DNA of 64,000 nucleotides from positions 71,695 through 135,694 of the forward strand of contig CAMPET010000200.1 in assembly GCA_946803715.1 (NCBI GenBank), given 5' to 3'. The DNA comes from Beroe ovata (lineage: Eukaryota; Ctenophora; Nuda; Beroida; Beroidae). This document shows positions 184 to 44,563 of this stretch, piece after piece (position 1 is the first letter of the stretch; each line of letters begins with the position of its first letter). The translations under genes and the position numbers were made by a program. Under the pieces are notes generated by a model. The model ran no database searches, had not been told where the DNA came from, and saw only the letters and a program-made list of their open reading frames with translations.

Positions 184-445
184 ACTCTTGAATGTTATAC
201 GTCATGTTTATAGCGATATCTGTTATCTTGAAATTATCACAGGGTTCATTGAGCAACTGATAGAATATATTTGATCCCAATCCATCTCTAGGTATCATGG
301 AGAGTGACATTGTCACTCTTGAATGGTATACGTCAAGTTCATAGCGATATCTGTAACTTTGAAATTGTCACAGGGTACATTGAGCGACCGATAGAATATA
401 TTTGATCCAAATCCATCTCTAGGTATCATGGAGAGTGATATTGTC
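184..445 (+). repeat. 131-bp tandem duplication spanning the start codon of the FAS/PKS-like gene
   Basis: Two head-to-tail copies (about 184-314 and 315-445) share nearly all bases with a few substitutions. Each ends in the same context, ATCATGGAGAGTGA. The second ATG (428) opens the long frame. The first ATG (297) is the equivalent position in copy one and opens a frame of only 15 codons that stops at 342-344. Because 131 is not a multiple of three, the upstream ATG is out of frame with the main gene and would behave as an upstream ORF if transcribed. Confidence 0.9.
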
Positions 446-3400
446 ATAGCTGGAGTTTCTTGTCGATACCCAGGGATCCGAAACGCAGACCATTTCGCCC
501 AATTTGTCCGTTCCCCCGACCCGCTAGGCTCAGGAGACTCATCCATCATCACAGACAAGCTGGACAACTCTCAGTTTTGCATGCATGCACACCAGGCAGA
601 GAACTGTGACCCGCAGATTAGAATTCTACTGGAGTGTGCGCGGGAAGCCCTCACAGACGCAGGACTACACGGATTTCAGGGTGAACCAGCTCAGGGAACC
701 ATAGGCTGCATTGTGTCGAGTGAAGTGAGCGACTATGGGGAATCAGTTGGATACGACATAGCGGCACTGTCTGGTTACGGTGTTCTGGGAGGCTGCCGAG
801 CTATGATAGCAAACAGAATCTCATTCGAGTGTAACCTAACCGGTACAAGTTACACCCTGGCTACCGGTAACAGTCTGGTGGCGTTGCATAATGCTGTGCG
901 TCTCATCACCGATAACCGGTGTGATGCGGTAGTGGTGGGTTGTGTGGAGCTGTGTATCAAGCAGAGTCACACCAGGAAAGTGGCGATGTTAGGCGCCACC
1001 ATAAGTCGTGTTGAGGGAGGGGGTGTGATTGTGTTGGCGAGAAGGGGGCTGGCAAGCAAGGTGTATGGGAGAGTTGATGCAGCCTGGGTGAGGTATCTTG
1101 GAGCCGAGATGAGAGGGGGAATTCGCGATGCTTGGAGCAATATTGGGAGAAGTGAGGGAAATTTTGAGATTGTGTTTGGAGATAGCAGTTGGAATAGAGA
1201 TGTTGGATACATAGAGAAACATATGTTCAACACTTCACAATTCAAAGGGATGTACAAGTACAAGCTCCATACCGCGATAAGAAAAATCGGTGATTTGGGA
1301 CCTGCCTCAGGATTAACAACCCTGCTCATCGCACTTTACTCCTGCCTAATGAATCGATTCTGCGTGACGGCATGCGGCATAACAGGGACTTATTGCGTGA
1401 TACACATCACACCCTCCCCACCACCTCATCTCACCCCTCGGTACCTCACAGTGTGTGCAAAAAACACAGATACAGTGAGCAGAGTTCTGCACAGGTACAA
1501 TCACTGCACTCCAGAGCAGTGCATGTTTATCGCGCACTGCTTCTCTAAAATGAGTGGTCATGTGAGAGGTATATATGATGGGGAGATAGGTACCACACAT
1601 ATTGGAACCCCCTCGACTCGACCAATTTGGCTGGTGGTGGGAGGGGTGGGGGCTAATTGGGTGGGTATGGGCCAGCATCTCATGTCTATTCCACAGTATG
1701 CAGCCTCAGTTCACACAACGCGCACGCTGATCAATGAAGATGTTAGAGATACGTCCAATGCTATCTATAATCTGTTCATGGAACTACTGGAATTTCAACT
1801 AGCTCACATTGATCTGTTGAAGTGGTTGGGACTGCACTTTGATGGTATCATTGGGCACAGTTTTGGTGAGATAGCTGCACTGTATGCTGCAGGAGCACTC
1901 ACCAGACACCAAGCCGTACAGTGTGCAGAGCAGAGGGCAGCCAGCGTGATATTGACGCGCGAAGGAGCTATGTTGGCAGTGACACTTCCCGTGAGTGTGA
2001 ACGACCCGGCACAATGGGTAGCAGATAGGGTGGGGTGTGAGGTGGACGTGGCGTGTGTGAACAGTTCACACTCTGTAGTGATATCGGGAGACAGAGTGGA
2101 AGTGGAACGCGCACGGCGTGTATTGGAGGAGGAGACGGGAGCAAGGTGTATGGGTGTGCGGAGCTTTGACAAGGCATTTCACTCGAGGTTCATGTTCCAA
2201 GCAGCAGAAGTTTACAAAGAATCACTGCAGGGCGTGTTCCAGGGTACAAGAGCCCCGGGAAACTTCATCAGCTCCAGTCATGTGGGAGAAGAGGTCACAA
2301 CTATAGATGCGGAGTATTTCACAACCAACATGGTGGGCCAAGTCAAGTTTTACAGCGCATACAGGGACAATATACCCCCTGATGCAGTGGTATTGGAGCT
2401 GTCTCCACATAGCATGTTTTGTAGGTCTATACATGAGGATATTCCTGGTACTGAGTGCATCCCACTGTCCAGTCGACACGATCACCACATTGCACAGAGT
2501 GATGCCCCGATTAGTGAGTTGGAGAAAATTGTGGAAACTCACACAGCAAACTCTCACAATAAGAGGAAACAGAGTAACGACGAATACCAATTGTTCAAAG
2601 CCCTCAAGCACATATACCTCAACACAAACAGTGAAATCCAGCTTGAAAAGCTTCCCAAATCTGGTGGATCAGATGACATCAATGCTGGCTGTCTACTGTC
2701 GTGGGATCACTCTCAAACATGGTACGTTCCTTTAGAGGAACATTTCCCAGAGGTAGGAAGAACGATGGTCAAACCCCAAAACACTTCCACTGTCGTCACC
2801 AAGACAGATAATGGAAACCCCCTACTACTACTAGACTATCACATGATGTCAGTTATGCAGTGTTTTACACACGATGTGTCCAGCTACTCATTCAACCAGG
2901 AGATGCATGGGAGTGTTCTGGTGTTTTGTATTTTAGAGCAGCTTGTAAGAAACAGCTTAGGGGGGAGGTCAGGGCTTGTGGTGAGTGGGTCATGCCCAGT
3001 TAACTGCAACAAGAGATCGTCTAACAACTTTGTTGACGTGTTCGTGATGGGGGATAGTGTAGATGTGGTGTATAATGGAGTAGGAGTGTTCTCTGGACAT
3101 ATGGCTCGAGTGGGATCGATAGGGGAGAGCATTGATGGGGACCGGGAATCTGTACTAAAGGAGTTGAGGAAAATACGAAATTGCAAAGACATTATCTTTT
3201 TCGTGAACACTACAGCTGTGATAAGTGTAGAGTCAACAAAAACAGACCCTTCCTCGATTGTGTCAAAGTATTTCATCTGTCGATTGGATGCTGAATTGGC
3301 AGGTCAAACAGAAGATGTAGGAAAAAGTTGTTTAGATTCAGAGAGCAATGACGAACGTACCAATGAAACAGAGAACTTTATTGTGAGGAAAGCTAAGAAA

Positions 3401-3571
3401 ATACTTGGAATTCGTAATGTAGTTCATCCAGATAAAAAACTCCAGGATTATGGGATTGATTCTCTGATGAGTACCGAACTTAGTGATATTTTGAATGATA
3501 ATGACACTGGACGTAGATTTTGTAGTGAGGTTATATTGAATTTGTCCTTCAATGACTTGAATGATATGTGA
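428..3571 (+). CDS. Truncated FAS/PKS-like protein: KS(inactive)-AT-DH(degenerate)-ACP
   Basis: Single-exon frame of 1047 residues. Residues 1-330 match a ketosynthase fold ('GVSCRYPG', 'NSLVALHNA', 'GPASGL'), but the catalytic Cys position is Thr146, the HGTGT histidine segment is not recognisable, and the histidine of the usual IGH motif is Asp289. The ketosynthase is therefore very probably dead. Residues about 400-740 are an acyltransferase with intact GHSFG (Ser478) and FHS (His585). A weak hotdog dehydratase-like stretch follows, with 'DYHM' around His805. The C-terminus is an acyl carrier domain with 'YGIDSL' (Ser1012 for phosphopantetheine). No KR, ER or thioesterase follows, although animal fatty acid synthase is about 2500 residues. 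It could load and carry acyl groups in trans for another synthase. The intronless structure contrasts with neighbouring genes and suggests retroposition or transfer (inference). The start at 428 is preferred because the KS motif begins almost at once. Confidence 0.85.
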   Translation: MESDIVIAGVSCRYPGIRNADHFAQFVRSPDPLGSGDSSIITDKLDNSQFCMHAHQAENCDPQIRILLECAREALTDAGLHGFQGEPAQGTIGCIVSSEVSDYGESVGYDIAALSGYGVLGGCRAMIANRISFECNLTGTSYTLATGNSLVALHNAVRLITDNRCDAVVVGCVELCIKQSHTRKVAMLGATISRVEGGGVIVLARRGLASKVYGRVDAAWVRYLGAEMRGGIRDAWSNIGRSEGNFEIVFGDSSWNRDVGYIEKHMFNTSQFKGMYKYKLHTAIRKIGDLGPASGLTTLLIALYSCLMNRFCVTACGITGTYCVIHITPSPPPHLTPRYLTVCAKNTDTVSRVLHRYNHCTPEQCMFIAHCFSKMSGHVRGIYDGEIGTTHIGTPSTRPIWLVVGGVGANWVGMGQHLMSIPQYAASVHTTRTLINEDVRDTSNAIYNLFMELLEFQLAHIDLLKWLGLHFDGIIGHSFGEIAALYAAGALTRHQAVQCAEQRAASVILTREGAMLAVTLPVSVNDPAQWVADRVGCEVDVACVNSSHSVVISGDRVEVERARRVLEEETGARCMGVRSFDKAFHSRFMFQAAEVYKESLQGVFQGTRAPGNFISSSHVGEEVTTIDAEYFTTNMVGQVKFYSAYRDNIPPDAVVLELSPHSMFCRSIHEDIPGTECIPLSSRHDHHIAQSDAPISELEKIVETHTANSHNKRKQSNDEYQLFKALKHIYLNTNSEIQLEKLPKSGGSDDINAGCLLSWDHSQTWYVPLEEHFPEVGRTMVKPQNTSTVVTKTDNGNPLLLLDYHMMSVMQCFTHDVSSYSFNQEMHGSVLVFCILEQLVRNSLGGRSGLVVSGSCPVNCNKRSSNNFVDVFVMGDSVDVVYNGVGVFSGHMARVGSIGESIDGDRESVLKELRKIRNCKDIIFFVNTTAVISVESTKTDPSSIVSKYFICRLDAELAGQTEDVGKSCLDSESNDERTNETENFIVRKAKKILGIRNVVHPDKKLQDYGIDSLMSTELSDILNDNDTGRRFCSEVILNLSFNDLNDM

Positions 3572-6298: not shown

Positions 6299-9200
6299 TC
6301 AAGACTTGAGAACCACGTCCAGAAGTTTGGCAAAGTCTGGAGTTCCCATGCCAGTGACCGGGTCCCAACCCTCCGCCACGTTATAGCCTTCTAAATCATC
6401 CAGCCAGCACGCTTCACTGTTGCTACCCGAACTGATATCTGTGAATGCACCACGGTTCCGATAAATGAACGGGTTGAGGAAACCCAGGACGGGTTTCCCA
6501 GCGGCGAGGCGGGCGTCGTTTAGCAGGGCAAATATTCCCGCCACAGTGGGGGTCGCAGCTGAGGTACCCGCGACGTTCATGAGGAATCGGTCGATGATAA
6601 TCCAGAAGTTGTCAGACATGGCTGCCAGATCGGGGAATGCTCGTTTGGAGGGGTCAAAGTGTTGCGGGTCAGGGAGCTCAGTTGTGTTGAGGTAGTGAGC
6701 CACGGACTCTCTCTGCCAAGGAAAGGGTCGTTTACGAATCGTCATTCAGTAAAAATGGTAACAAAATTTCTACATTGGGCAGGGGTAAACTCTCAGCAGT
6801 AAGTCTACCTGGTATTTTGGCATTTTGAAGAGAGCACTGAAACCGCCCCCAGAGATATCGTTAGCTTGTTCATTATCATCGCTGAACATGCTCGTAAACC
6901 GAGTTCCTCCGACCGCCGTGACGAAGGGGGAAGTGGCGGGGAATTCGGGTTCGAATGTCACCGACCCATCCTCAGACCTGCGCGAGATGATTCATGTTGT
7001 TATGCCAGATCAGATGTGATTATAGTGATAGTGATAGTAGAAACTCGCTGGTTGACGCATCTCCAACTATAGCAATAGCATATTGATATAGTTTACTAAA
7101 CCATGTTTAGCAATTAGCAATTCTAAACCGGAATCCTTCCTAGATTCAATGCTCACCTGTAACATCCTGCTCCTCCGTCTCCACTAGCGAAGAGAATACT
7201 CAGTCCCCTGACCCCAGCTTTCTGGAACTCTCTGTTTATCCGAGACATGTACTCCGGGGACAAGCTCCTCTCATAGTCACCGTAACTCACACTGAGAAAA
7301 TGGAGTTTGAGTCCCGGTGTTTGGGGGAAATCACTTATCAATCAATATTGCATAAGAAGAAGGGGTTACAAATTGATATCGGAACAACTCGTGATCACAG
7401 AAGTCACCTATGGACGTAGGGGACGTTGGTTGTGTTGCTGAGGTGGATCAACCACTCCAAGAACGGTTCCTGCTTATCATGGAGACCACCAGTACTCCAG
7501 AATGTGGTTGTGATGTTAGCTCCGAGCGACATGAGATACTGCACATCGAGATTAGCTTCCAGCCCCGTCTTACCACTGTTAGGTCCCACCACGTGATCAA
7601 CCTGTATAGATATCATACACGGGCCATGGCTGTGAAAAATTTGACTCTCGATTGAGAATGAGACATAAACTGCCCCTCAGTCCACACTCCCTAACGACTA
7701 TAATAGTGTGTGATATACCCCCAGATACTCACCGTGTTACTGTGGACAAAGCCCCTTCCAAACAGGAACATAAACTCCTTCAGATCGGCTGGTGAGTAGT
7801 GTTGTCCCAGGAACTGTGCAGTTGCCTGCGAGTTATTGGAGCTCCGTCCTCCCACAGCACTGCCCACATTGTACTGCTTGCGGAGAGTGTCTGGGTGGAC
7901 GCCGTAACGGAATCCATGGATACCGTTGTCAAGGTATTGGTAACTGCTGTCAGTGTCCAGTGGAATTCTGTGCGGTTAGAGCTATCATTATATTAAGATA
8001 GTGGTGTCACTATAAAAGTGTCGCCATGGTGCCACGCGTGAGTATAATTTGGTGAGGAGAATGGGCATGCTGAGTACTTACCTCTGTCTCACCCTGAACC
8101 GCTGCTCATTACTCGGGACCCTGTGTACCCCACCCACAAAATCAAGTGAGCTGGCCACGGTGGTCGGTACTGTGTACGGTTTGCTGGCTCTGAGCACCAC
8201 TCTATCCGACGACTGAGGGGATTTGTAGTAGCTGAATTCTGTTTCCAGGAGGGATTCAGCCGTCTTGACGCTCATGAGACAGGACAAGAAGTCTCCAGTG
8301 TGGGGAGCGGTGCAGGAGTGTTGAGGGGATATGCCGTAACTTATCAACCATTGTTCAACTACCTGCGATTTGCAGGTTGAAATGACACAGGCATGGATGG
8401 TGAATTCACATATCACACACAGCTGGCGCATAAACTCAAACACAGCAACACACGTACAGTCACAGACACACGACAATTCGCACGACGCAAACGCAAATGT
8501 ACTCCACACACAGAGCAACCTGCACCATACCTGGAGATGTCGAGGATCCGGTTCCACCAACTCCCTCACTTGTTCGAGTGAGAGGTACTTCCCATAGCCA
8601 GGGGAGCTGGGATCGGAACACTCCCAGAAGTGACGTTCCAACAGATCCACATTTCTCTGTCTGAGGGCGAGCACCAGGGACACCCCCTCATCGGGTGACG
8701 CTGACCTGCAGATTATAACGGAACATGAATGAGTGGTGCAAATTCATTGTTAAAAACATTGCAATGCATCCATATTGTAGGTACAGGCGTGTCACAGGAG
8801 CTGTGTTATTCGACCATTGCCCGCGCGTCCCACTTATGAGTTAATGATTGTCTTGAAAATGGCAGGAATTAAGCTTACCCCGCATTTATCCACCCTCTTG
8901 AATGTGGTAAAGTCTGCTTTGATTCCAGCAGTACTCTTGTAGCAGCGACTGATCCCACCAGGAGACCAAGCACCAAGATATGATGTAGTGGTTTCATCCT
9001 GTTCAACACTCAATATCCAGTATACAATCGTGTTATTGTATTCAATATTGTATTCAATTGTATTCAGTATTCAATCGAGAATATTGTCAGACTTTGTCAG
9101 TCTTTTGGTATTCAAGGAGGAAATATTGAATACTTANGGATATGCCGTAACTTATCAACCATTGTTCAACAACCTGCAAATTTGCAGGGTGAACAGACAC

Positions 9201-9799
9201 AGGCATGGATGGTTCACTCACAAACACAGGCGCATAAACTCAAACACAGCCACAGACGTACAGTCACAGACACACGCAAACGACAATTCGCACGACAAAC
9301 AAACGCAATACACAGAGCAACCTGCACCATACCTGGAGATGTCGAGGATCCGGTTCCACCAACTCCCTCACTTTTTCGAGTGAGAGGTACTTCCCATAGC
9401 CAGGGGAGCTGGGATCGGAACACTCCCAGAAGTGACGTTCCAACAGATCCACATTTCTCTGTCTGAGGGCGAGCACCAGGGACACCCCCTCATCGGGTGA
9501 CGCTGACCTGCAGATTATAACGGAACATGAATGAGTGGTGCAAATTCATTGTTAAAAACATTGCAATGCATCCATATTGTAGGTACAGGCGTGTCACAGG
9601 AGCTGTGTTATTCGACCATTGCCCGCGCGTCCCACTTATGAGTTAATGATTGTCTTGAAAATGGCAGGAATTAAGCTTACCCCGCATTTATCCACCCTCT
9701 TGAATGTGGTAAAGTCTGCTTTGATTCCAGCAGTACTCTTGTAGCAGCGACTGATCCCACCAGGAGACCAAGCACCAAGATATGATGTAGTGGTTTCAT
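6299..9799 (-). CDS. TPP1: Tripeptidyl-peptidase 1 (sedolisin, CLN2 homologue)
   Basis: Minus-strand exons: E1 8879-8997 (or its twin 9681-9799), E2 8531-8705 (or 9333-9507), E3 8082-8362, E4 7733-7967, E5 7408-7601, E6 7157-7291, E7 6809-6977 and E8 6299-6712. Using one copy of E1 and E2 the phases close to 573 residues, against about 563 for human TPP1. E1 supplies a hydrophobic signal peptide. A propeptide with '[14 protein letters not shown]' follows. The mature S53 domain carries the catalytic Glu and Asp in '[13 protein letters not shown]', the oxyanion Asp in 'ASGDGGAG' and the nucleophile Ser in 'AGTSAATP'. The late '[14 protein letters not shown]' matches the C-terminal segment. The product is expected to be a lysosomal exopeptidase that removes tripeptides from N-termini. 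E1, E2 and the 5' end of E3 occur twice around a single N at 9137, so this locus is misassembled at its 5' end. Confidence 0.95.
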
Positions 9800-9938
9800 C
9801 CTGTTCAACACTCAATATCCAGTATACAATCGTGTTATTGTATTCAATATTGTATTCAATTGTATTCAGTATTCAATCGAGAATATTGTCAGACTTTGTC
9901 AGTCTTTTGGTATTCAAGGAGGAAATATTGAATACTTA
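8337..9938. repeat. 800-bp direct duplication joined by one N (assembly or allelic redundancy)
   Basis: Positions 8337-9136 and 9138-9938 are near-identical direct copies separated by a single N at 9137. Both contain exons 1 and 2 of the TPP1-like gene and the first bases of exon 3. They differ by scattered SNPs and small indels, mostly in the intron around 8370-8515 versus 9172-9320. One coding change is present: Gln in copy 1 versus Lys in copy 2, in 'LSLE(Q/K)VREL'. Copy 1 ends exactly at the N, while copy 2 runs on into unique sequence. This is the pattern expected when two haplotype contigs are butted together. A true tandem duplication is less likely because copy 2 contains only the 5' edge of exon 3. 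Confidence 0.9.
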
Positions 9939-9998
9939 TTCAATCCTATTTACATGAAATATTTGGCTAAACTGTTAAGATGAAGTAGAAAATATAGT

Positions 9999-10134
9999 CT
10001 TTATTCATGAGGTTGAGGAGTGGATGGCAGAATTATCAGTCGAGGGCGAAGCCCGAGCTGATAACTGGAGTTGAATCCGAGACCGAAGGTCGAGGATTTA
10101 ACGAGCCATCCACTCCGAAACCGAATTAATAAAG
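9999..10134. mobile_element. Foldback/cloverleaf MITE-like element
   Basis: A perfect 12-bp outer stem, 'ggagtggatggc' (10017-10028) with 'gccatccactcc' (10105-10116), is extended outward by imperfect arms ('tctttattcatgaggtt' against 'aaccgaattaataaaga'). Two internal hairpins sit inside it: 'ttatcag...ctgataa' with a GGC-GAA-GCC tip, and 'aatccgagacc' GAA 'ggtcgaggatt'. The whole folds as a three-armed cloverleaf of about 135 bases. It has no coding capacity, so a non-autonomous transposable element is the likely identity. Confidence 0.7.
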
Positions 10135-11723
10135 AATATTTTACAACGTCCACGAATGATACGTTAATTGCTTGTTACCTGTTTCGGTTAACTTCATGCC
10201 ATCATACAAAACTACTCACTATAGCATTCCCAATAGCTTGACCGCTAAAATAATTTGGGGGACTTTTTGTGCCAGTGGGAATGCGGCACCGACTGGGACA
10301 GTCTCAACCGCACGCACGTGTATAAGAAAGGCGGCATTGTCAAACCAAAGCAACAACATTTAGCTGGCTACTAATGTTGGAGTGCGCTATCGACCGGAAA
10401 GAGATAGTATCTCTGATCTTCTATTTTTGGTGTCGCCGACACGTTGAAGTTAATTGCGGTACTGTTTCGATCTAATTTCCGTGTTTTTCCGTGGGATTTT
10501 CCGGATTCAAGCTAATTCTCGAAACTCTGGATTCTCTTTTGTTTACACTGCCAAATCTCGACACTGCCAACACTGCCATGTCTTCTTCAGCAGCTTCGTT
10601 TAAGTTTGTGGAGAGATCCCCCTCAACCGTTGTAGCTGAATCATCTTTTCCTTCATTTTTTACTGTTGTGCAATTCGCTCTTCAATTTTTTTCATTGTTT
10701 ATTTTATAGTATACTGATGGATTATCGTATAGTATACAGATGAATAATCTCTCTATAACCATGTTTATTGTACACTATATGGATGAATAATCATCATCAT
10801 TGATCAATTATTGATCACCATACACAACGATAATTCCTGTCCATGACGGGTGATAGTGTAATTTTCGGCAGCATTATTCGGATAAAAGTTGTAAAATAGA
10901 GTTTCACCAAGATCAAAAAAATAACACATTCCTGCTTGAATAGCTAGTTACTAATATGAATAAGAAAATCTAACTGGAAACATTCAAAGCGCCGCAAGAA
11001 AAACATGTTCAGCTCAAAATGAATCTAGAAAATTTTTTTGAAATATAACACTGACACTTCTAAAAGCGATATATCTGTTAAAGATAAGAAAACAACGTGC
11101 TTTTTTATCATTATTCAAGAAGATCAAGTTACTGGAAATTTAAAAATAGTATGGTTACCGCGTGCTCTATGATCATTCTTATCACGAGTAATGATCGAAT
11201 CAAAAAACTTAAGCTGATGTTCGTTGTTCCCTGGTACACCTCGGAAGATATGTGGCAAAATGGACTCCTGCTCAAAATCATCATATGACTTGCAATTATT
11301 ATCGGCGCAAAAAATATTAGTTGATTACATTAAACCGAATAAGGCAATATGTGGAAGGACGCACATGATAGAAAGCAATAGAGCAACAAATATGGACATT
11401 GGAAATTGAGATACTGATTAACTTTTCTGGCCATGTAGGGGAAAGAATATCATGCCATAGGCAGATGCTCTATGACAGCTTTTATATAAAGGACAGTATA
11501 CTCTGTCATTCCATTTCCAAAGTCAACGGATAATGTTTTCAATCCTCCGTTCTTTGCTGCATACTCAGAGCTTTACTCATCCTAACCTCTTGATATCTGC
11601 TATAAAATCAATGACACTGTTGGGCGTTGACAATAACATTTGTATCACGCGTCCTTTCCTTCGAGCTACTCAAGATCATGTTTTGGTATGAGCTGATACC
11701 GGCAAAAGGGTCATAAGATTTGT

Positions 11724-11934
11724 AGATGTGTCCATTGTGTCCATCACCTGGGGAATGTCTAATGCACGTCTAATGCACGTCTAATGCACGTCCATTAGAC
11801 GTCCATTAGACATTTCACTCAGTTTGAAAATTTGGTATTTTTGTCCATTGCACACCAGTGGACACAATGGCCACAATTTGTGCATTTTCGATGTCTAATG
11901 GACATGTTCAATGGACACAATGGACATCGATCTT
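11724..11934. repeat. Inverted and direct short repeats upstream of the fusogen gene
   Basis: 'gatgtgtccattgtgtccat' near 11724-11743 is nearly the reverse complement of 'tcaatggacacaatggacat' near 11908-11928. In between, 'gtctaatgcac' is repeated three times and 'gtccattagac' follows twice (11756-11811). The arrangement suggests a small palindromic element. It ends at the N at 11935, so its right edge may be an assembly join. Confidence 0.6.
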
Positions 11935-11954
11935 NGCGCTGAACAGCGATACAA

Positions 11955-14900
11955 ATGTCAGTGATGCTTCTCATTACCATACTTTGGATGTTGTTGCAGA
12001 ACAAGTCGTGTTCAGGAGAGGAGGTTATCTGCAGTGCGACAACTGATGTCACGGTTTCCTTGGAGCACAGACAGCGATTCATGGGCACTGATATCTACCA
12101 GTCAGCTCTCATTATTGAAAACCTTTACAATGGGGCCACGGTAAGCGGGCTGGCATAGGCAATCAATTAATGACATGGTAATGAGTCAATTAACAAGGAG
12201 TTATAGTTCTAATTAATCCGAAAACTGATAGTCCAAATTTGAAATTATTCATAACTGTCTTGAAAATACTCTAAAAATCAATTTGATTTTGAGAATATTT
12301 TTCAAGAAAGTTAATTAATAAATAATAAAATAATAAAAATAATAAATAATAAAAATAGGCACATTTTCAGGCATGTTTCGATCTCAAAAACTCAGTTGAC
12401 GGGACTCTTCACCGATTCGCAGTGAAGATTGAATCTCTTTATGCGACATCTAGTTTTGAGGATCAGTACGAGTTCGGCATTCCAGAGGCAAAGGTACGCT
12501 GGCGTGTTTATTTCACATTAGATGGCAACTAGTGCCGGTGTCGATGCAACAATAAGGCAAAATAACGCAACAATAACGCAACAAAGTACTAAAATGCATA
12601 GAAACTGTTTTACCTTTATAAACTCCTCAATATCTGCTCAATGGCTAGCAGCTTTGGCTAAATCTACTCCCTTTGGCCAAAGCTGATATATGGGTACAAT
12701 TCCCGCAGGCTGTGTGTACATGCAGTTGCAAAGAGGTGATCAATGGAGGCAACTGCAATGAGGAGGTTGCTAATTTCTGCATGGGACACAACAGTGACGA
12801 TATCTGTGTGGAGATCACTGAGCAAACATCCAATACTGACGACTGTCTGCTTGACTTGGGGTCACAGAGTGCGGTATCGTGCTGTTCTGTAGGTATCCGG
12901 CAATCCAGTATCAACAGCACTTACAAAGCAATGAGAATACGAGATCAACATCAGTACAATATCAAACTTCTCGTCTACCCCGATTATAGGGATGATCAAG
13001 TGTTCTATACACAAGGTATTTTTACAATGAGTAGTCTGTGTAATATATGCAGCTAAAATCAAGTATGATGTGAAAAGCTTCAATTAGTGATCGTTCATCG
13101 GTTATTAATAAACTTGTACCAAATTTCAGAGTTCAAGCTGGCGAATTCTGTAGCTCTGAGAGAGCAAGGCTTGATGTTTGAGAAGATTATCGGAACAATA
13201 GAGAATGTCGAACAGATAGTGAGCCCTAGCGAGTGGTACATAGGTATGTACTGAGTTCGACGACTCCCAATAGACACACAAACACACACAGACACACACA
13301 TACACACTCAAATGATTCAAAAAATTATAGCTGATAACTGAAAAATAGATCTGCAACTGCAGCTGATAGTTGTGTCTGATTTACTTTACTCAATCCCCCA
13401 GGAAAGAGCAAACCTTATGACAAGAATGTCTTTGAGTCACGGAGAATGCTGGCTGGAAAAAACGAGTGGGACATCTCGAAAGCTGATTGGGCAAAGTTCA
13501 ACCCAAGAACAGAGAAGTGAGTATGAAAACTGATCTGATTGGGATCTGAAGCAACGATCAGCTGACAGCTGTGCACTATATAGATTAAAGAGGAAAGTTC
13601 AGAGTGCAATGTTTTTGCGGCAATTTAGATCTTAAATTGGCCTGCCGACAACTGCGCACATAAAAATTTATTTCCCACGGTCTAACAGGGTGCCCTGTCA
13701 ATTTTTCGGGCTAATTAGGTACCTTTTATTCTTGAAACGACAACTGCGCACATTGCATTTGCACCACAATCAAACTGAAGTCTATACCAAACGACAACTG
13801 CGCACATACTCATAGGGGCAGGGTAAGGGTTAGGGTAAGGACCAGTGTTAGGTTAGGGTCAGGGTTAGGGTCAGTGTTAGGTTAGAGTCAGGGTTAGGAT
13901 CGGGGACAGGATTAGCCGGTTACGGTTAGGGAAGAAGTTGGCTGTTTGGTTCAAGGTTAGAGATACTCTCACATGGATTTTATCACTGAATGTGCGCAGT
14001 TGTCGTTTCTAATCAGGAGGTTTTCACTGATTGGGTTGACCTCAAATTTTCCCACGTTACCCTGTCAATCGCTGACCTCCAGTGTGCGCAGTTGTCCGGC
14101 AGCCCTTATATTGACTACAAACCCTCTGCAGATTCGAGTTGAATTCCGGCGTCACAGATAGCGACATCAAGGCTGCATTTTCTGCTTCTGTAAAGAACTG
14201 TGGCAAGAGTGTCATAGAGACTTCTTTCACTGCAGTCAAGGAGCACGAGTTCATTTCAAATTTGGAATCACTGGAGAAAATGCATTCTGCATATGTACAC
14301 CAGGTTTTTAGATTAGAATATCCTCCATGAAGTTTTCGGTTAACTGAGCCAAGCAATTCGAGCAGCCGGCGCATTTCAATTGTTGCAAATCCAAGCATAG
14401 TTCTAAATGCACGATCACATGATATGACTGAAATCAAACTCTATCTCATTCTCAGGTGACATGGAAGAACGATGGTTTGAGTCATGGTTCCATGAAATGG
14501 GACTTTAGAGAGTCGGTCATCAAGACAAACTTACAGTTCATATTTGAAGGTACTTTTTTTAGCCCTATACTAGGGGCAACAAGCATCTGCACTGAGATAA
14601 TTGAGATCTTGTTAACAACGATATTAACATAACTATGATTAATCAATCAATTATCTAGTTACTATCTAACCAACTCAAATATTCACCCACAGGGAAAGAA
14701 GAAGATTATGCAGTTGAAAAGGTGAGAATTAACTATGGAAGACTCCCTGATTATTATAACGTCGTTACCTAGCTGACACCATATCGTGAATGGTGTCAGT
14801 CCTAAACCCCTTCAGTCTAGTTTTTACCGATAGGGAAGACCCTGAAGCTAGTGTTCTAATTCCCATAACCCAGGTATCTAGTCACGCTGTTATGGGGAAA

Positions 14901-16693
14901 TTCACTGCCGAAGTCGTGGTATCAGAGCATGGAAACAGGTTCCTTCACATCAACATAACTGATTCAAAAGGGACAATTGAGGCATTTTTCTATGTGAGTA
15001 AAGTTATTTTTGTTAAATTTGAAACTAATGGCATTCCTGTCAATGTAGATTAGGGAAATGACAGGGAGGTTCATCCCACAATAATTGTAGTATTGCACTG
15101 TACATAATATTTTTCAGCCTTACAGTGACAGCACATCAAATCTTATAACTTTCACGTTTGATGTTACGGAGGAGGGGGCTCAGTCAAAGTACTACAGAGA
15201 TACACAGTTGAAATGTGCAGTCAATCAACCTCCTGGTATGCAATGAGATAGAGCTGGTGGATGGATTATTTTATTTTAATTGATGTTTCAAACTCTTATT
15301 CACAGCTGATCCCTCTCATCGTCGCAGGTAAATTGTGTCTCAGATCATCATCGAGAAGTTCAAACGAGGAATGCATCAGCAATGTGATGTGCAGGGAAAC
15401 AAGAATCAAGGGTAGGTGGACATGCTATGCGTCTTCCTGAAGTACCTCAAATTTGGCTTTTTGCAATGTTATTTTAAAAAGTTGGTAATATTAACTTTCC
15501 ATCCAACAGAAGCTGAGATTCCAACTTATGACTTGGTCACTAAAACAATTGAGTCTGAGGGAATGAGCAATTTGAGTTCTTGGCTCAAGTATGCCAACCC
15601 CTTTGAGTGGTTCAATGGCATTGACAATGTACAAGTGAGTAAAACTCGACTAATTCTCCTCATCATCTAGACTCATAGACATAGATTCAGTCGATTGTAA
15701 TGATCATCGGTAATATTCTCGTACCAGAGTCCACAAACCTACGTCTCCAGGAAGTCATTGTGCTGCTGCTGGAGGTGGGCGGCACCATTGGTGGCACATT
15801 TCTGGTACTGAAAGTGCTCAAAACGATGGGTCTCCTAGGAAAGTGCTGTCACTACATGTGGTGCTGCTTCCTATGCCCTAAAGTGAGTGTGTTCAAGCGG
15901 CTGTGTGTGTGTGTGTGTGTGTGNNNNNNTGTGTGTGTGTGTGTGTGTGTGTGACTACTGCCTGTGTTATTGCATAATGCATATGCATATTGTATCAATT
16001 GCCTCTGAAAATTTATCATACACAAGGTACCAAACAAGGCAGTGGTATATGCATGATCACCCGTCATCTGACTCTGAACATATCTGAACATTTCAGACCG
16101 AAAAGAAGGTTCGGGAAAGAGCAAATACAGCACGGGACAGAGCAAGCAGCTCAATGTCACATGCGAGGAGAAAGCTCAGAGAAAGTATCTCATGGAAACG
16201 CCGAGATAGGTTTGAAATGACTGAGGAGGAAACTCAACAAGTGGATGGATACATGGATAGGAGGAGTTTCAGAGAAAGGTAATATATCTACATTTTAGTA
16301 CATTTGCATCAAAAACAATCCACTTTTTTTTGATACGCGCTTCTTTTTTTGAATGAATGGATTTATGTATTCACAAATCAACCAAAAATAGATCTATTTT
16401 TACAATTCAGTCCAACATTTTTCAATTATATCGTGGTAACTGGGTAACAATGGACAATGAACACCTTGGCATTCATATCTACTCCACCTCGCAGGCTAAG
16501 TACAGTGGCCATTGCAAAAAGACTGAGAAGAATGATGTCAATGAAAGCTAAAATGCGGGATGGTCTCATCGAAGGTGACGTAATTGCCAACAAGAATGCA
16601 ACAATGGATGAAGTTATAATTGAGAAGCACATAAATGAAAGGGAGAAAGATATTGTCGAGAAGAAAGTGAGTTTTGCAGATGATCGGGTTTGA
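11955..16693 (+). CDS. EFF-1/AFF-1 family cell-cell fusogen (fusexin superfamily)
   Basis: Fifteen phase-consistent exons: 11955-12140, 12371-12493, 12709-13015, 13130-13243, 13402-13516, 14132-14303, 14456-14549, 14693-14721, 14874-14993, 15118-15235, 15328-15411, 15510-15634, 15691-15882, 16097-16278 and 16495-16693. They encode about 719 residues. Residues 1-21 are a signal peptide. The junction of exons 2 and 3 reads 'YEFGIPEAK/AVCTCSC', and a cysteine-rich module follows (Cys 106, 108, 110, 119, 127, 136, 149 and the CC pair at 161-162). Then come 'STYKAMRI', 'SVKNCGKS' and 'NRFLHINITDSKGTIEAFF'. This order and these motifs match nematode EFF-1, as I recall it. A single transmembrane segment lies near 549-573, followed by 'CCHYMWCCFLCP' and a very basic cytoplasmic tail of about 125 residues. 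Known family members are homotypic type I membrane fusogens with a class II fold. Function in this organism is inferred. Exon 11's acceptor and exon 13's start are the least certain junctions. Confidence 0.85.
13639..14104. mobile_element. TIR element with telomere-like core, in intron 5 of the fusogen gene
   Basis: Outer inverted repeats: 'cctgccgacaactgcgcaca' from about 13641, and its complement 'tgtgcgcagttgtccggcag' to about 14102. Inner copies of 'acgacaactgcgcacat' lie at 13737-13753 and 13791-13807 in direct orientation, and at 13990-14007 inverted. The centre (about 13815-13935) is a run of degenerate GGGTTAG/GGGTCAG units resembling telomeric TTAGGG repeats. No coding frame is present. 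Its position wholly inside an intron suggests insertion of a non-autonomous element. Confidence 0.75.
15904..15953. repeat. (GT)n microsatellite with N gap 15924-15929
   Basis: A pure GT tract interrupted by six unknown bases, starting about 20 bases after the donor of fusogen exon 13 (15882). The true tract length is unknown. Confidence 0.95.
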
Positions 16694-17320
16694 ACTTTGA
16701 ATGCAGCTGATCCTGCGGTGCTCATCAGATTAAACTGAAAACTTGTGAGCTTTTGGAACCATATTAAGACAAAAGAAAAATCGAGCAAGGTATTGGCCAT
16801 GAACCACGCACGTAATTACAGTGGTTGTTTCTGTAGCTAAAATCCGCAATAAATTATGACGCGTGCTTACGTATTATAATAGCGAATATTTAGGTTAATG
16901 GCCACAAATTATTACATGACAAAATCATATTTATTTGATTATCAGTGATAGCAATAGCATTAGACTTAGTCACTTTTCATTTCCTCTTTGTACAGAGTTT
17001 GTAATTAACTTCCCATTCGATAGATATACCTAGGACCTAGGTATAATAATAGCGAATATTATTATTGCATTGTTAGCTTGAATCTTTATTTTAGTTCCTA
17101 GATAGGAGCTCTGTGTTCCAGAATTTGTTTTTTCTCTTTGAATTCTGAAATGCAGAAAGTGTTAAGTGTTAATTTCTATGATATTGGATGGAAATGTCTT
17201 GTTTATCATTATGTTATTTTACAGTTAACAATGACGGAGTTTGTACTTTTGTACAGCCAAGGACATTATTGAACTCTTGATACCTTTTCTTATACAGTTT
17301 GAAATCTTTTTCACACCATC
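16694..17320. other. Fusogen 3' flank and intergenic gap
   Basis: AT-rich with no gene. A candidate polyadenylation signal AATAAA lies at 16848-16853, about 155 bases after the fusogen stop codon. The right part is presumably the 5' flank of the glycosyltransferase gene; no promoter element is evident. Confidence 0.45.
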
Positions 17321-19003
17321 ATGAATCGAATGTTGTCTTTTCCATGCAAGTTTCAATGGCAAAATACAATTATAGCAGCCCGAGCATATACTAACTTGAA
17401 CATATTTGACTGGATGAATGATTTCAAGATGACCTGCCCAAGAAGGAGACTGAAACGTATAATATTCATCGTTTTCTGCTTTCTCATGATTTGGTTTCTT
17501 GACATTTGGAATCGATTGCTGTGTTTCATAAGCAATCGTACAGATGAACCTTCAGATGTCATCAATAACAAGAAATGGATGAACCAGGATCAAAAATTGA
17601 TTCAAATAAGACTGATATATGGCGGTTTATGCTGGTCTTCATCAAAGTATAACGAACTGATATTAGCATTCTGTAATCCTAATCGCAATGATCATTCATT
17701 CCACCTATCGATTGAAGGGGTCCTGATCAAACATCAGGGTATTGATCCAGATGAGTTGTTATGTGTCACCACCAAACAGAGCAAATTAACATTGCAGAAG
17801 TGTGGCCAACACCAATCTATCTTGTTCAGTGTTGACGATGGATTTGATAGTTATATCCAAATAACTGACCCTGTAACTGGTGTCAAGAAATGTGTGAACG
17901 CTACTTATTCGCCAAGGAAGAGAAAAGACATAATTGGGATACCTAAAAATGGGAGTGTAATGCATTTGTCTGACTGTACTGACAAACAGGAACTTCGAAT
18001 TGAGGCTGTCGATGAAAATTCTTTTCGTATTGATCGGATGGCACTCATAATACCTAATTCACCGTTACCAGTACATGATCAAAATTGTACAGGCGAGCTT
18101 TGTCATTTGAATGAGCGTCACGGACCAATAAAAACAGTGATAACAGATGGGGAAGAATGCTTAAATGCATCAGATTGTGTTACAGTGGTTACAAAGACTA
18201 CCAGGAGACCTCTCCTGGTACTACGAATGGCCAGGTCCATAAGAGAGAATCTCGGGTATGATATGCCAATCATCACTGTTGATGATGGACCTGAGGGGCA
18301 TGGGGATGAGGTGATGGGGAACATGACCATGTTTCCTCGATTGCAGTATCATATATCTGATGATGAGGATCTTGGTATTTCCCAAGGGAGAAATCTAGCA
18401 CTTTCCTTAGTGAAGACAAAGTATACCCTGTTCGTTGATGATGATAATCTATTCAATGAGCAGACATCACTTGAAGTGGCTCTACACATTCTAGAGACAA
18501 CAGATGCAACTGCTGTTGGCGGAACGTACAGCGGTAACCAAGACTTTAGCGGATTTTTAAGATTGAATGATTACGGTCCTAACAAGGTTCAAATTCTAAA
18601 GCTTTACAAAGGTTCCTGCATGGAAGCTAATTTGACTGTGCCTGGATTCCCACAGTGTGTTGATTGTGACTTAACGAGCAACATATTCTTGGCTCGGACA
18701 CACGATATGAGGGAAATAGGAGGATGGAGCAAGGAGTTGAAAGTTGGAGAACATAAAGACATCTTCATGAGATTGAAAGCAGCCGGAAAGAAGGTGGTGT
18801 ATTGTCCCCAATTCCAAGTTTTCAACAAGAGAGCTTATGCAAAGAGTGAATTGACGTCGAAGGATTACTACCAAAGAAGATTTCAACGCAAAAAACAAAT
18901 GGAGCAACTGTTTTGCAATCGTTGGAACATTGGAGGGGTAGTTGAGGTTGGGAAAAATCAATTGAACTATTCATCATTGATAAAGATGACAGATAGCAGA
19001 TAG
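17321..19003 (+). CDS. Type II Golgi glycosyltransferase, GT2/GT12-like (beta-1,4-GalNAc-transferase type)
   Basis: Intronless frame of 560 residues. A short cytoplasmic N-terminus with a basic patch ('RRRLKR') precedes one hydrophobic segment near residues 46-68 ('IIFIVFCFLMIWFLDIW'), which is type II Golgi topology. A cysteine-containing stem region of unknown fold follows (about 90-280). The catalytic GT-A domain begins near 'CVTVVTKTTRRPLLVLRMA'. It has 'IITVDDGPEG', then 'DLGISQGRNLAL', the metal-binding DDD at 373-375 ('LFVDDDNLF'), 'AVGGTYSG' and 'VGEHKDIFMRLKAAGKKV', and it ends in a basic region. The order resembles B4GALNT1/2-type enzymes, which add GalNAc to glycolipids or glycoproteins. 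Acceptor specificity cannot be read from the sequence. The ATG at 17321 is the first in frame; an internal Met at 17414 would still keep the membrane anchor. Confidence 0.8.
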   Translation: MNRMLSFPCKFQWQNTIIAARAYTNLNIFDWMNDFKMTCPRRRLKRIIFIVFCFLMIWFLDIWNRLLCFISNRTDEPSDVINNKKWMNQDQKLIQIRLIYGGLCWSSSKYNELILAFCNPNRNDHSFHLSIEGVLIKHQGIDPDELLCVTTKQSKLTLQKCGQHQSILFSVDDGFDSYIQITDPVTGVKKCVNATYSPRKRKDIIGIPKNGSVMHLSDCTDKQELRIEAVDENSFRIDRMALIIPNSPLPVHDQNCTGELCHLNERHGPIKTVITDGEECLNASDCVTVVTKTTRRPLLVLRMARSIRENLGYDMPIITVDDGPEGHGDEVMGNMTMFPRLQYHISDDEDLGISQGRNLALSLVKTKYTLFVDDDNLFNEQTSLEVALHILETTDATAVGGTYSGNQDFSGFLRLNDYGPNKVQILKLYKGSCMEANLTVPGFPQCVDCDLTSNIFLARTHDMREIGGWSKELKVGEHKDIFMRLKAAGKKVVYCPQFQVFNKRAYAKSELTSKDYYQRRFQRKKQMEQLFCNRWNIGGVVEVGKNQLNYSSLIKMTDSR

Positions 19004-19424
19004 TGAGCACAATATAGTTGCTACTTCATGTATTCAGATTTGATTGTCTGACTGAAGTGTACAATTAAGCTATTCGTTGATAGGGAGACTTGTCTGAAAT
19101 ATATAGAAATTAACAATCTGAATAGGATGAAATTATAACAACTCCAGATAAACAATATGTCATCACTGTGAATTTAACTACGGTAATTTCTTGACTTATA
19201 TTCTGAGTCAGATTGTCCAGCACAGTCACATAAGCCGTGATATTGAATTGATTACATGAAGGGGGATCGCTTCTCATATTTGAGAGGCAACTGACTTCAA
19301 TGCTCTCCTTTTACTTGCCACATTTATCTTCTGGACCAAATGAGGATCTTCAGAGTACTCTGACGCCAATTTTCCTGTGTAATTATGCAGAGCTGACGTA
19401 ATAGCATAATGATATTACTAATAT

Positions 19425-20644
19425 TCAATAATGCATCAGAAATTCTATGGGACAAGCAATATTCATGCGGCCTATCATGCATTTTAATGTATCAATGTTT
19501 ACAATCATATCAATGGAACCTTCATCTGTGACTTTGGTTGTGTCTGCTCCTCTATCAAGGAGTAATTGTGTCATTTCAGTGAGGTTGAAAGCAGCAGCAA
19601 AGTGAAGAGCTGTCCAGCCATGGGTATCCTGAGCATCAATATCACCTCCGGCATCAAGAAGTATCTCACAGGCGTCATGATCATCATACACCACACACTC
19701 ATGTAAATAACGCTTTCCCTAGGGAAAGAATATGTGCTACATAGCAGTGGGCGATTCACTTTTTCGTTTTCACATGGCATCCACTTGGAAATTCATTCAA
19801 AGTATGGTGAGTGTTTGGAAATTGGGACACCATGAAATGTGGTTTGAATTAGAAACCTCTGATGTGAGCACATTGACATCAATCTCGTCATTGTCAATGA
19901 AGTCCATCAGTGCATCATAGTCCTGCATCTTTATAGCTGATAAGATAGTTTCCTGCGAGTATAGACGGGCTTGAACGCACGTTTTCAGCAAAAATATGTT
20001 GAAATTATGATGTGTATCGCAGGATGATTGCACCTCAGAGAGATTCTGTTTAAGCTCTGATCTAACTTCTAGTTACATTCTCAGAGAGAGGGGGGGTAGT
20101 AACTGCACCTCATAATCATGCAGCAGCGTATCATCTTTCTCTCTCAAGCACCCAACATCAACTTCATTCTTTCCATTAAAATCTTCAGCAGCTGGAGTTC
20201 CCTGTACAATATCATGGAGACAATTGAACCTCAAGTAAAAAGATGGATGAGTTAAATTGATTGTAGATCACCTTCTCTTTAGGCTTTCGTCGTTTGGAGT
20301 TTCTCATAGCACTCAGAAGTCCATCCTCATTTGCATCAGGAATGGTGATTTCATCTGTGAATAATGGTTGATCACCTACGAATTTCTATTTATATTCATT
20401 ATCTGATCAGCCAATAAGGGTATCAATTAGTTCTCAAACTGATCATCTCACATGAATGTAGGTAATGAGTCAAAACATTTCATGTAAAGATGATTCTATG
20501 CTCTACTACCCTCACACCTTTGCACTTCCCGAGATGAGGATCAGGGAGGCCGAGGGGTGCAGTTTCCTGATCAACTGGACTCTTCTTCTTAGTACGAATT
20601 CTCAGACCGATAAAAGCCTTTATTCCCCGGAGTTTCTCAGTCAT
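19425..20644 (-). CDS. Small ankyrin-repeat protein
   Basis: Five minus-strand exons with consistent phases: 20518-20644 (ATG at 20642-20644), 20272-20354, 20109-20201, 19857-19952 and 19425-19718. They encode about 230 residues. The N-terminal half is charged and probably disordered, with two basic clusters ('RIRTKKK' and 'KRRKPKEK') that could act as nuclear localisation signals. The C-terminal half has about three ankyrin repeats: a helix pair around 'YDALMDFIDNDEIDVNVL', then 'GKRYLHECVVYDDHDACEILLDAG', then 'GWTALHFAAAFNLTEMTQLLL'. It is probably a binding adaptor. The layout recalls short PPP1R-type or nuclear ankyrin proteins, but no specific family is claimed. The donor at the end of exon 3 (GAG|gtgcag) is weak and the next exon could be joined differently. 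Confidence 0.7.
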
Positions 20645-26688: not shown

Positions 26689-37757
<11,069 letters not shown>

Positions 37758-43390: not shown

Positions 43391-44563
43391 TGAACGGAGT
43401 ATGATATGATATGATGGGGATTCTTGTTTGAACTCTCATCTCTTCTTGTTTTTGTTCTTTGCTCCTGATTTTTATTTGTATTTTGGTCTGACACCGTGGT
43501 GATATAGCTATGTGGTTAAAACTTATACCCAATATTTGGCTGGTCCACTGCTGCAATCTGAAACCAATAAGGGAGCTTCACTTCTACGTTACATGGATGT
43601 CACACGATAATAACATGGTTAACTGCCGTTAAACTGCAGGCTGATTCGTCGTTGATGTTTGGTAACTCACAACTCAGAAAATGGTGCACCTGAATATGAT
43701 TGTTGTGGTGTACAAGTTATATTCTGCAAACTGCAAGTAGACCTTTGTTTCTCTAGTTTCTGCTCTTTTCAACGAGCCAACAAAACACACCCTTCTGTGA
43801 TTTCTATAGAGCATTCATTCAGAATCACAAGATTTTGCTCAATACTTCTCTCCCTCATAGCATTGATGCACAAGTGAAACTGTGAATTTTGCATATTGTG
43901 ACGAGCAAGAAGAAGCGAAGAATACTTCACCTGTTCATTGTTACAAAAACAAACATGAGTTGGTAAGTCGAAATCTTCATTTGCTCCATTTACATCGCTT
44001 TTTCTAGAGCATTCTCTCAGTCGAAACTTTAAGCAACGATTTCATTCAGGTTGTCTGTGACGTGAATTTACAGAAATTTGTCTCATTGAAGCTAGAACAA
44101 GTGAGTCATCTTCATTTTCTGCTGCAGTTGTTGACTATATTTGAAGTGCATCACTCAATATTTTTGTTTCTGTACTCCAATGTGATGCCAAAGTGTTCAC
44201 TCTAGATTACTCTGTACACTGTAGACTATTCATTTTTACCCTTTTTGTTCATAGCTCATCTGCATAGGATTGAATTTCACATTTTAATGTTCCTTCACAG
44301 CTGTTTTCATAATTGTACCATCACTGAAATCGTTGGAATGTTATCTCAATCGCTGAGATGTAGTAATGATAGCATTTTTCCAACTATTGAGCCGTCATTC
44401 AAGTAAAACTTGCTTGTTTGCTTCTTGTCAGCCCCGTGATAGAGGAAAAGATTTATAAAGGAGTCGAAAATGGTTGCCGACTTTGAGCCAAGCTCCTCAA
44501 TGCATTTTGTATCACTTCTTGGGATAATATGGGCTCGTTTTGAAGCTTGGCCACTAGCGGGCA
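43391..44563. other. Intergenic, no gene seen
   Basis: AT-rich 3' flank of DNAAF10 and 5' flank of the repeat-protein gene. Short frames on both strands, such as 44346-44564 (minus), lack family motifs and are not annotated. Confidence 0.5.

Follow-up and report, generated by a model that had tools for sequence, protein, structure and literature searches.

An intact EFF-1/AFF-1-type gene, one of at least six family members in a probable ctenophore genome

The closest described systems are EFF-1 of C. elegans and its paralogue AFF-1 (PMC9259645), somatic fusexins of the FF family. Earlier surveys place members of this family in nematodes, a few arthropods, a ctenophore, a chordate and a protist (PMC4723337). 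As a family feature, the tip loop of domain II is reported to be acidic, not hydrophobic (PMC4050280). Mnemiopsis possesses a syncytial nerve net, and the text available from its description names no fusogen (PMC7617566). Here, we describe an FF-type gene on the + strand of a 64,000-nucleotide stretch of DNA, which as a whole is called the window, and compare its predicted product with these systems.

Gene model and predicted protein

As the original prediction had proposed, fifteen exons between 11955 and 16693 (+) chain in phase and yield 699 aa followed by a stop codon. All 14 junctions are GT-AG, and each of the 14 introns would bring in-frame stops if left unspliced. At the level of sequence, this fifteen-exon FF-type gene is confirmed as real and intact.

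Exon 1 (11955..12140) provides the start codon and the N-terminal part; its open frame begins at 11943, behind an in-frame stop. The signal peptide that had been predicted was recognized, by inspection, as a signal-peptide-like segment MSVMLLITILWMLLQNKSCS (11955..12014), whose hydrophobic core is evident but short, with a 19-residue average below the threshold used. Exon 2 (12371..12493) ends in ...YEFGIPEAK, and exon 3 (12709..13015) carries the AVCTCSC cysteine module, where a CxCxC motif (12715..12729) aligns with C131, C133 and C135 of EFF-1. The expected block and cysteine module were found here, but the junction, given as EA-AVC, reads EAK-AVC, as exon 2 ends in K. The YEFGIPEAKAVCTCSC block is also present.

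Exon 4 (13130..13243) is followed by exon 5 (13402..13516) with NEWDISKADWAK, comparable to ...DRLGWYR in EFF-1, and by exon 6 (14132..14303) with SVKNC (KVKNC in EFF-1). Between exon 7 (14456..14549) and exon 9 (14874..14993), which holds the GNRFLHINITDSKGTIEAF block (compare SNRLFNLTVYEASGKIDG in EFF-1), lies a micro-exon of 29 nt, exon 8 (14693..14721). Downstream of exon 10 (15118..15235), exon 11 (15328..15411) contains the KLCLRS block (AICLRA in EFF-1), and exon 12 (15510..15634) encodes the membrane-proximal stem with the pre-membrane motif NPFEWFNG (15596..15619; NPAHWIKG in EFF-1).

Exon 13 (15751..15882) encodes the membrane span and the juxtamembrane cysteines; a second in-phase acceptor is predicted, which would move the exon start to 15730 and add 7 residues. 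Residues 531-549 (15754..15810) form the only hydrophobic window above threshold (Kyte-Doolittle, 19-residue window) and thus the single predicted span. The cysteine-rich juxtamembrane segment KCCHYMWCCFLCPK (15841..15882) belongs to a stretch with five cysteines. Exon 14 (16097..16278) codes for the basic cytoplasmic tail, and exon 15 (16495..16693) for its end, ...KKVSFADDRV, and the TGA stop. The tail comprises 150 aa with a pI of 9.8, and KVSF near its C-terminus is RVxF-like. Span, cysteine-rich segment and basic tail are all present as anticipated. The predicted topology is that of the FF family, type I, with a signal peptide, one span and a cytoplasmic tail.

Family membership and phylum

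In a Pfam search, the predicted protein matched EFF-AFF with an E-value of 5.6e-27 and 94.9 bits (cut-off 25) over profile positions 5-467 of 467. No other family, HAP2 included, was listed at E ≤ 10, in agreement with the original assignment to the EFF-1/AFF-1 type. Among PDB entries, C. elegans EFF-1A, for which the structure is solved, was the only match at E ≤ 1; absent matches to PDB folds were given no weight as evidence.

For a test against chance, a family profile was built from nine relatives, leaving the window gene out. The spliced protein scored 214 bits against it, whereas the best of 200 shuffles reached 5.3 bits and the best ORF outside the gene 4.5 bits (six-frame ORFs of the window of at least 15 aa, n = 2776), indicating that the match to the EFF-AFF family is not due to chance. 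Seven single + strand ORFs within the gene were listed at E ≤ 10 in the correct order along the profile. Of these, five had E < 0.01 and scores of 12.7-31.9 bits, while the remaining two, with 6.6 and 3.9 bits, did not rise above background. The listing also included a - strand ORF within the gene (2.0 bits).

The genome had been predicted not to be that of a nematode, and glutamate-receptor sequence and gene content indeed point to a ctenophore. Where ctenophore structures exist, the predicted proteins appear closest to ctenophore proteins. The S2 segment of the ionotropic glutamate receptor L061 matched Mnemiopsis ML032222a with 118 bits and 4zdm, presumably a Pleurobrachia structure, with 91 bits; the next best match was a delta-1 receptor with 41 bits. 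Mnemiopsis was also the top match of the whole L061 receptor. With the whole L060 receptor, full-length kainate-2 chains (219 bits) came ahead of the 256-aa Mnemiopsis domain (196 bits). Ctenophores possess innexins and Wnts and are not known to have the nuclear-receptor DNA-binding domain; they do have Hormone_recep domains. We found 14 innexin matches and 9 Wnt matches, the latter on 4 contigs, and genome searches run without a positive control gave no match to zf-C4 (the nuclear-receptor DNA-binding domain) or Hormone_recep. To our knowledge, innexins are absent from placozoans and sponges, so their presence disfavours a placozoan or a sponge other than a glass sponge. A glass sponge was ruled out because Wnt genes are present here, while the glass sponge Oopsacas is reported to lack them (PMC10280926). 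Mitochondrial COX1 was not found. The window gene, judged by its predicted protein, belongs to the EFF-1/AFF-1 (FF) family and represents it in a ctenophore.

Paralogues, divergence and alternative readings

What had been described as a well-preserved copy is one of at least six FF family genes in this genome, five of them full-length, and among these five it has diverged most. Its Pfam score is the lowest of the five, the other four ranging from 141.7 to 225.5 bits. The sixth gene, C84, has its 5' half in a run of N. In the C145 model the last exon was read to the first stop, though more splicing is possible; the C55 model has a weak donor at intron 2 (GTTGGT), and an inner ATG was taken as the start of C218. 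The paralogue on C218 is intronless and has a tail of 455 aa, next to which the long basic tail of the window protein no longer looks distinctive. PDZ-ligand-like ends occur in the C218 protein and in P0001-P0003. One of the 14 introns of the window gene coincides with one of the nine of C145 (column 483, phase 0), which can be chance. By eye, C55 and C84 have a phase-2 intron in common. A candidate seventh gene on C10 (E 0.355) was rejected, as the family profile gave only background there (best 4.5 bits, elsewhere in the stretch).

A tree was calculated from 12 sequences: a single EFF-1 fragment, five paralogues and six of the 12 proteins found. The window copy has the longest branch (2.6 substitutions per site), and its placement has a support of 68. 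With the EFF-1 fragment as its only non-ctenophore sequence, the tree does not distinguish an origin of the copies within the ctenophores from an earlier one. The protein collection yielded no orthologue of the window copy, which was the best match of none of the 12 family proteins found there. The core motif reads KADWAK in the window copy, RLGWYR in EFF-1 and K(L/V)GW(Y/F/L)K in the other ten aligned relatives. The EFF-1 fragment (residues 37-593) has 16 ectodomain cysteines, of which the window protein keeps 12. Cysteines 142 and 499, which EFF-1 has in common with at least nine of the ten relatives, are replaced by G and I, whereas 525 and 528 align to a gap common to all 11 other sequences. 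Because of the divergence, the changed core motif and the two lost cysteines, fusion activity may be altered or lost in the window copy.

These features would fit a diverged FF paralogue that is no longer fusogenic, with fold, surface display and anchor kept, and that serves instead in cell contact, in regulating or partnering the other FF proteins, or in a different kind of membrane remodelling. The higher scores of the other full-length copies and the endocytic scission role reported for AFF-1 (PMC5931541) are in keeping with such a protein. However, the window protein is full-length and intact, retains the membrane span and the pre-membrane motif, and two of its four missing cysteines are missing in all relatives. 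We consider loss of fusogenic function unlikely.

A captured class II envelope gene of an endogenous virus or retroelement, instead of a host developmental fusogen, is highly improbable. Besides the 14 introns of the window gene, two paralogues have 8 and 9. No LTR-like repeat pair of at least 40 nt was found in the stretches searched, window positions 7000-20000 and, for C218 and C321, some 10 kb around each gene; the only repeats there were tandem arrays and one local duplication. Reverse transcriptase, gag and integrase domains were found in none of 20 ORFs tested (10 of the 27 window ORFs of at least 130 aa, three each from C218 and C321, and four from elsewhere). Among 98 IMG/VR matches to two peptide patterns, no relative was confirmed, and the best relative in sequence and, judged from a modelled relative, in fold is cellular EFF-1. 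The FF family as a whole may have an ancient viral origin. A HAP2/GCS1-type gamete fusogen can practically be dismissed, given the exclusive EFF-AFF match and a class II fold that in a modelled relative (not the window protein itself) is closest to EFF-1, about 8 Z units ahead of HAP2. A search for HAP2 elsewhere in the genome, run without a positive control, found none.

Proposed function and comparison with known systems

The window protein is probably a real somatic fusogen of the FF family that, by analogy with EFF-1, would assemble homotypically in trans. It would be a type I membrane protein with a class II fusion ectodomain, one anchor and a cytoplasmic tail that is basic and rich in cysteines. 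Monomers on two facing plasma membranes would meet head-to-head and then join into trimers in trans, which would zipper both membranes together, the outcome being stable cell-cell fusion timed by development. We infer surface delivery and membrane merger of the window protein and, by analogy with EFF-1 work, the homotypic mechanism.

As a tentative possibility, ctenophores may have an expanded, anciently diversified EFF-1-type set in which differing cytoplasmic tails direct each member to cell contacts of its own, with at least one member building the syncytial nerve net. If true, neuron-neuron fusion by a dedicated fusogen would be an original feature of nervous systems, not a nematode repair trick. 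At least six EFF-1-type genes make a short candidate list for the protein that fuses ctenophore neurons. They are also concrete candidates for ctenophore cell merging, perhaps including the fused nerve net, and deep outgroups for nematode EFF-1/AFF-1 proteins, and their widely differing tails offer material for studying how fusion is aimed and limited.

Identity between EFF-1 and the window protein is 16.7% across 515 aligned positions, and the predicted ectodomain conforms to the EFF-1 cysteine pattern. The NPxxW pre-membrane motif, the type I anchor, the cysteine-rich juxtamembrane segment and a charged tail resemble EFF-1/AFF-1; the tail itself is unrelated to that of EFF-1. HAP2/GCS1 and class II viral glycoproteins have the class II fold in common with the family, according to the model of a relative, but their fold scores lie below that of EFF-1 and their sequence match is not significant. 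C. elegans has two genes, EFF-1 and AFF-1, compared with at least six in this genome. We take the ctenophore FF protein of earlier surveys to be a Pleurobrachia transcript. It belongs to the same family and, by the gene evidence here, to the same phylum, so the family is not new to ctenophores (PMC4723337), and the surprise lies in the number and diversity of its members, at least six genes, rather than in their presence.

An intact fusogen gene of the EFF-1 type

The gene at 11955-16693 on the + strand had been proposed to consist of fifteen exons. A splice and translation check bears this model out: the 14 introns all have GT-AG boundaries, the frame is kept across every join, and 699 residues are encoded before the stop. 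When read through, each of the 14 introns contains at least one in-frame stop. Intron 5, the longest in this gene, carries degenerate GGTTAGGG-like (telomere-like) repeats at about 13815-13945.

The Pfam search suggested in the original prediction gave a match to EFF-AFF, the family of the EFF-1/AFF-1 somatic fusogens (FF family), at 94.9 bits (cut-off 25). Residues 61-523 align with nearly the whole profile (positions 5-467 of 467), and no other Pfam family was found at E <= 10. In the PDB, C. elegans EFF-1A was the sole molecule at E <= 1, with four distinct sequences (best 2.5e-9). As a chance control, we built a profile from nine relatives, leaving the window gene out, and scored 200 shuffles of the window protein as well as the ORFs of the window. 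The spliced protein reached 214 bits, the best shuffle 5.3 bits, and the best window ORF outside the gene 4.5 bits. Of the seven + strand ORFs that the profile matched within the gene, all in the correct order, five reached E < 0.01, and the other two lay in the background range (6.6 and 3.9 bits); a single ORF on the - strand scored 2.0 bits.

The predicted layout of the protein (leader, ordered blocks, one span, cysteine-rich juxtamembrane segment, basic tail) is present. A hydrophobic leader and a block ending in YEFGIPEAKAVCTCSC are followed, in this order, by NEWDISKADWAK, SVKNC, GNRFLHINITDSKGTIEAF, KLCLRS and the pre-membrane motif NPFEWFNG. A single membrane span is predicted at residues 531-549, the juxtamembrane run has five cysteines, and the tail comprises 150 residues with a pI of 9.8. 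The putative fold is assigned by homology.

A ctenophore genome with at least six family members

The gene content agrees with the claim that this is not a nematode genome. A genome search (77.8 Mb assembly, 534 contigs) gave Wnt matches on four contigs; according to a passage in PMC10280926, the glass sponge Oopsacas is without Wnt. A glass-sponge origin, to which the size of the genome and possible syncytial tissue had pointed, was rejected on this ground. One short Wnt match (C64:262688-262834) lies within a 6033-aa open frame, oddly long to be without interruption. Innexin matches numbered 14. No nuclear-receptor DNA-binding domain was found in a genome search run without a positive control. 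Ctenophores have the nuclear-receptor ligand domain; none was found in the genome search, in which introns may hide such domains, and its absence makes for a poorer fit to a ctenophore. Sequence similarity carries the most weight: two open frames for ionotropic glutamate receptors were compared with the PDB. The top match of L061 was the ligand domain (256 residues) of ML032222a, which we take to be a Mnemiopsis protein, above full-length chains of other animals. In the S2 segment of L061, Mnemiopsis scored 118 bits, 4zdm (presumably a Pleurobrachia structure) 91 bits, and the next match, a delta-1 receptor, 41 bits. For L060, full-length kainate-2 chains scored 219 bits and the short Mnemiopsis domain 196 bits. 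Judged by these affinities, the genome can be assigned to a ctenophore with high confidence.

The EFF-AFF search of the genome gave six matches at four loci (contigs C218, C321, C55 and C145). The window gene itself was missed, its exons being too short to be picked up in this way. C218 and C321 each hold a single intronless open frame, which may reflect retroposition or intron loss, and the C55 and C145 models have 9 and 10 exons. All four exceed the Pfam cut-off (C218 195.4, C55 192.2, C145 225.5 and C321 141.7 bits, some scored with a truncated tail). The sixth family member lies on C84; what can be read of it is the 3' half, with the RFLNISIINGKGTLHG block, VNPLEW, FNGI and the membrane span, and a run of N of at least 5.1 kb (L058 1-5123) masks the 5' half. 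Another candidate, on C10, was rejected. Across the six genes, introns are absent from two (C218, C321) and number 8, 9 and 14 in three. The tails of the five full-length copies range from 35 to 455 residues and from pI 4.8 to 10.1. The window copy scores lowest of these five with Pfam and forms the longest branch in a tree with one outgroup sequence.

The family was said to be known mainly from nematodes with sporadic members elsewhere, and a passage in PMC4723337 indeed lists nematodes, a small number of arthropods, a ctenophore, a chordate and a protist. That ctenophores can have the family was therefore known already; what this analysis adds is at least six FF genes within a single ctenophore genome, five of them with complete models. 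No paper on ctenophore fusogens was found in a literature search that largely left out subscription papers and preprints. In the two ctenophore reviews found, EFF-1 occurs in a cited title only, and the accessible part of a Mnemiopsis nerve-net paper (PMC7617566) names no fusogen of its own.

Neighbouring genes and relatives in public collections

Ordinary host genes surround two of the paralogues: the C55 gene adjoins an RPB1-like CTD repeat frame, and the C145 gene an M24 peptidase. In the window, Pfam identified part of a polyketide/fatty-acid-type synthase at 395-3568 (+; a frame of 1058 aa that combines ketoacyl-synthase, acyltransferase and carrier domains), a Pro-kumamolisin activation domain frame at 8081-9595 (-), a glycosyltransferase-2 at 17303-19000 (566-aa single frame, shortly 3' of the fusogen gene on the same + strand) and a single-frame rhodopsin-type GPCR at 49978-51066 (-). 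Long open frames at 31042-32253 (+, 404 aa) and 44558-45955 (+, 466 aa) have no Pfam match at E <= 0.01. Within 8081-9595, the 300 nt at 8494-8793 recur at 9296-9595 with 98% identity, and more repeated blocks lie nearby; about 800 bp were either duplicated in tandem recently or doubled in the assembly.

Searched alone against a collection of 5.8 billion proteins, the window protein yielded no relative among 6063 candidates, nor did exon 3 alone. A profile of the five paralogues found 12 proteins (P0001-P0012) there. C218 was the best match of 11, ten of them at 47-60% identity and P0012 at 37% over 134 residues only; P0010 matched C55 best (36%), and none of the 12 matched the window copy best. 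Such a skew would be expected if the collection was predicted largely without introns. Relatives of C218 make up most of the FF proteins found in public data. The C-termini of P0001, P0002, P0003 and C218 share GHSRNGSRVLLLKN, followed by SSDV, SSEL, SSDL or GTDI, and these ends resemble the class I PDZ ligand motif; the ends of P0004-P0009 differ from those of P0001-P0003. A scan of IMG/VR with two peptide patterns gave 98 matching stretches and no confirmed relative. Against the PDB, the five-paralogue profile matched EFF-1A at 7.8e-61; the next molecule, 'Envelope protein E' (7l30), was insignificant (0.34).

Possible function and comparison with EFF-1

EFF-1 is an upright monomer before fusion and a trimer afterwards, is proposed to meet its like head-to-head on the opposite membrane, and has an acidic rather than hydrophobic tip loop, as described in part of PMC4050280. 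Passages in two other papers state that it is needed in both membranes (PMC9259645) and that its tail influences fusion timing (PMC4723337). The conservation of the family ectodomain, anchor and tail makes homotypic fusion the simplest reading for the window protein, which would fuse like cells in the manner of EFF-1. The differing tails of the FF copies may set where and when each acts. The main rival to homotypic fusion is that this rapidly diverging copy now has a function other than fusion; its core motif would point that way, as it reads KADWAK where the ten other aligned relatives have K(L/V)GW(Y/F/L)K. Recent viral capture of the gene is disfavoured, as far as tested, by its 14 introns, by the lack of LTR-like flanking pairs near it (7000-20000 searched) and near the intronless C218 and C321 (about 10 kb each), and by retroelement domains in none of 20 ORFs tested around FF genes (10 in the window, where 27 ORFs have at least 130 aa, and 10 elsewhere).

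With 16.7% identity over 515 aligned positions, the window protein is a remote relative of EFF-1. Of the 19 cysteines in the aligned EFF-1 fragment (residues 37-593), 16 belong to the ectodomain, one lies within the span and two follow directly after it. Twelve of the 16 ectodomain cysteines and both juxtamembrane ones are conserved in the window protein. EFF-1 C142 and C499 are replaced by G117 and I476, and C525 and C528 belong to a stretch absent from all 11 other aligned sequences. The window protein and all ten other relatives, but not EFF-1, share cysteines in two further columns (C453 and C481 in window numbering).
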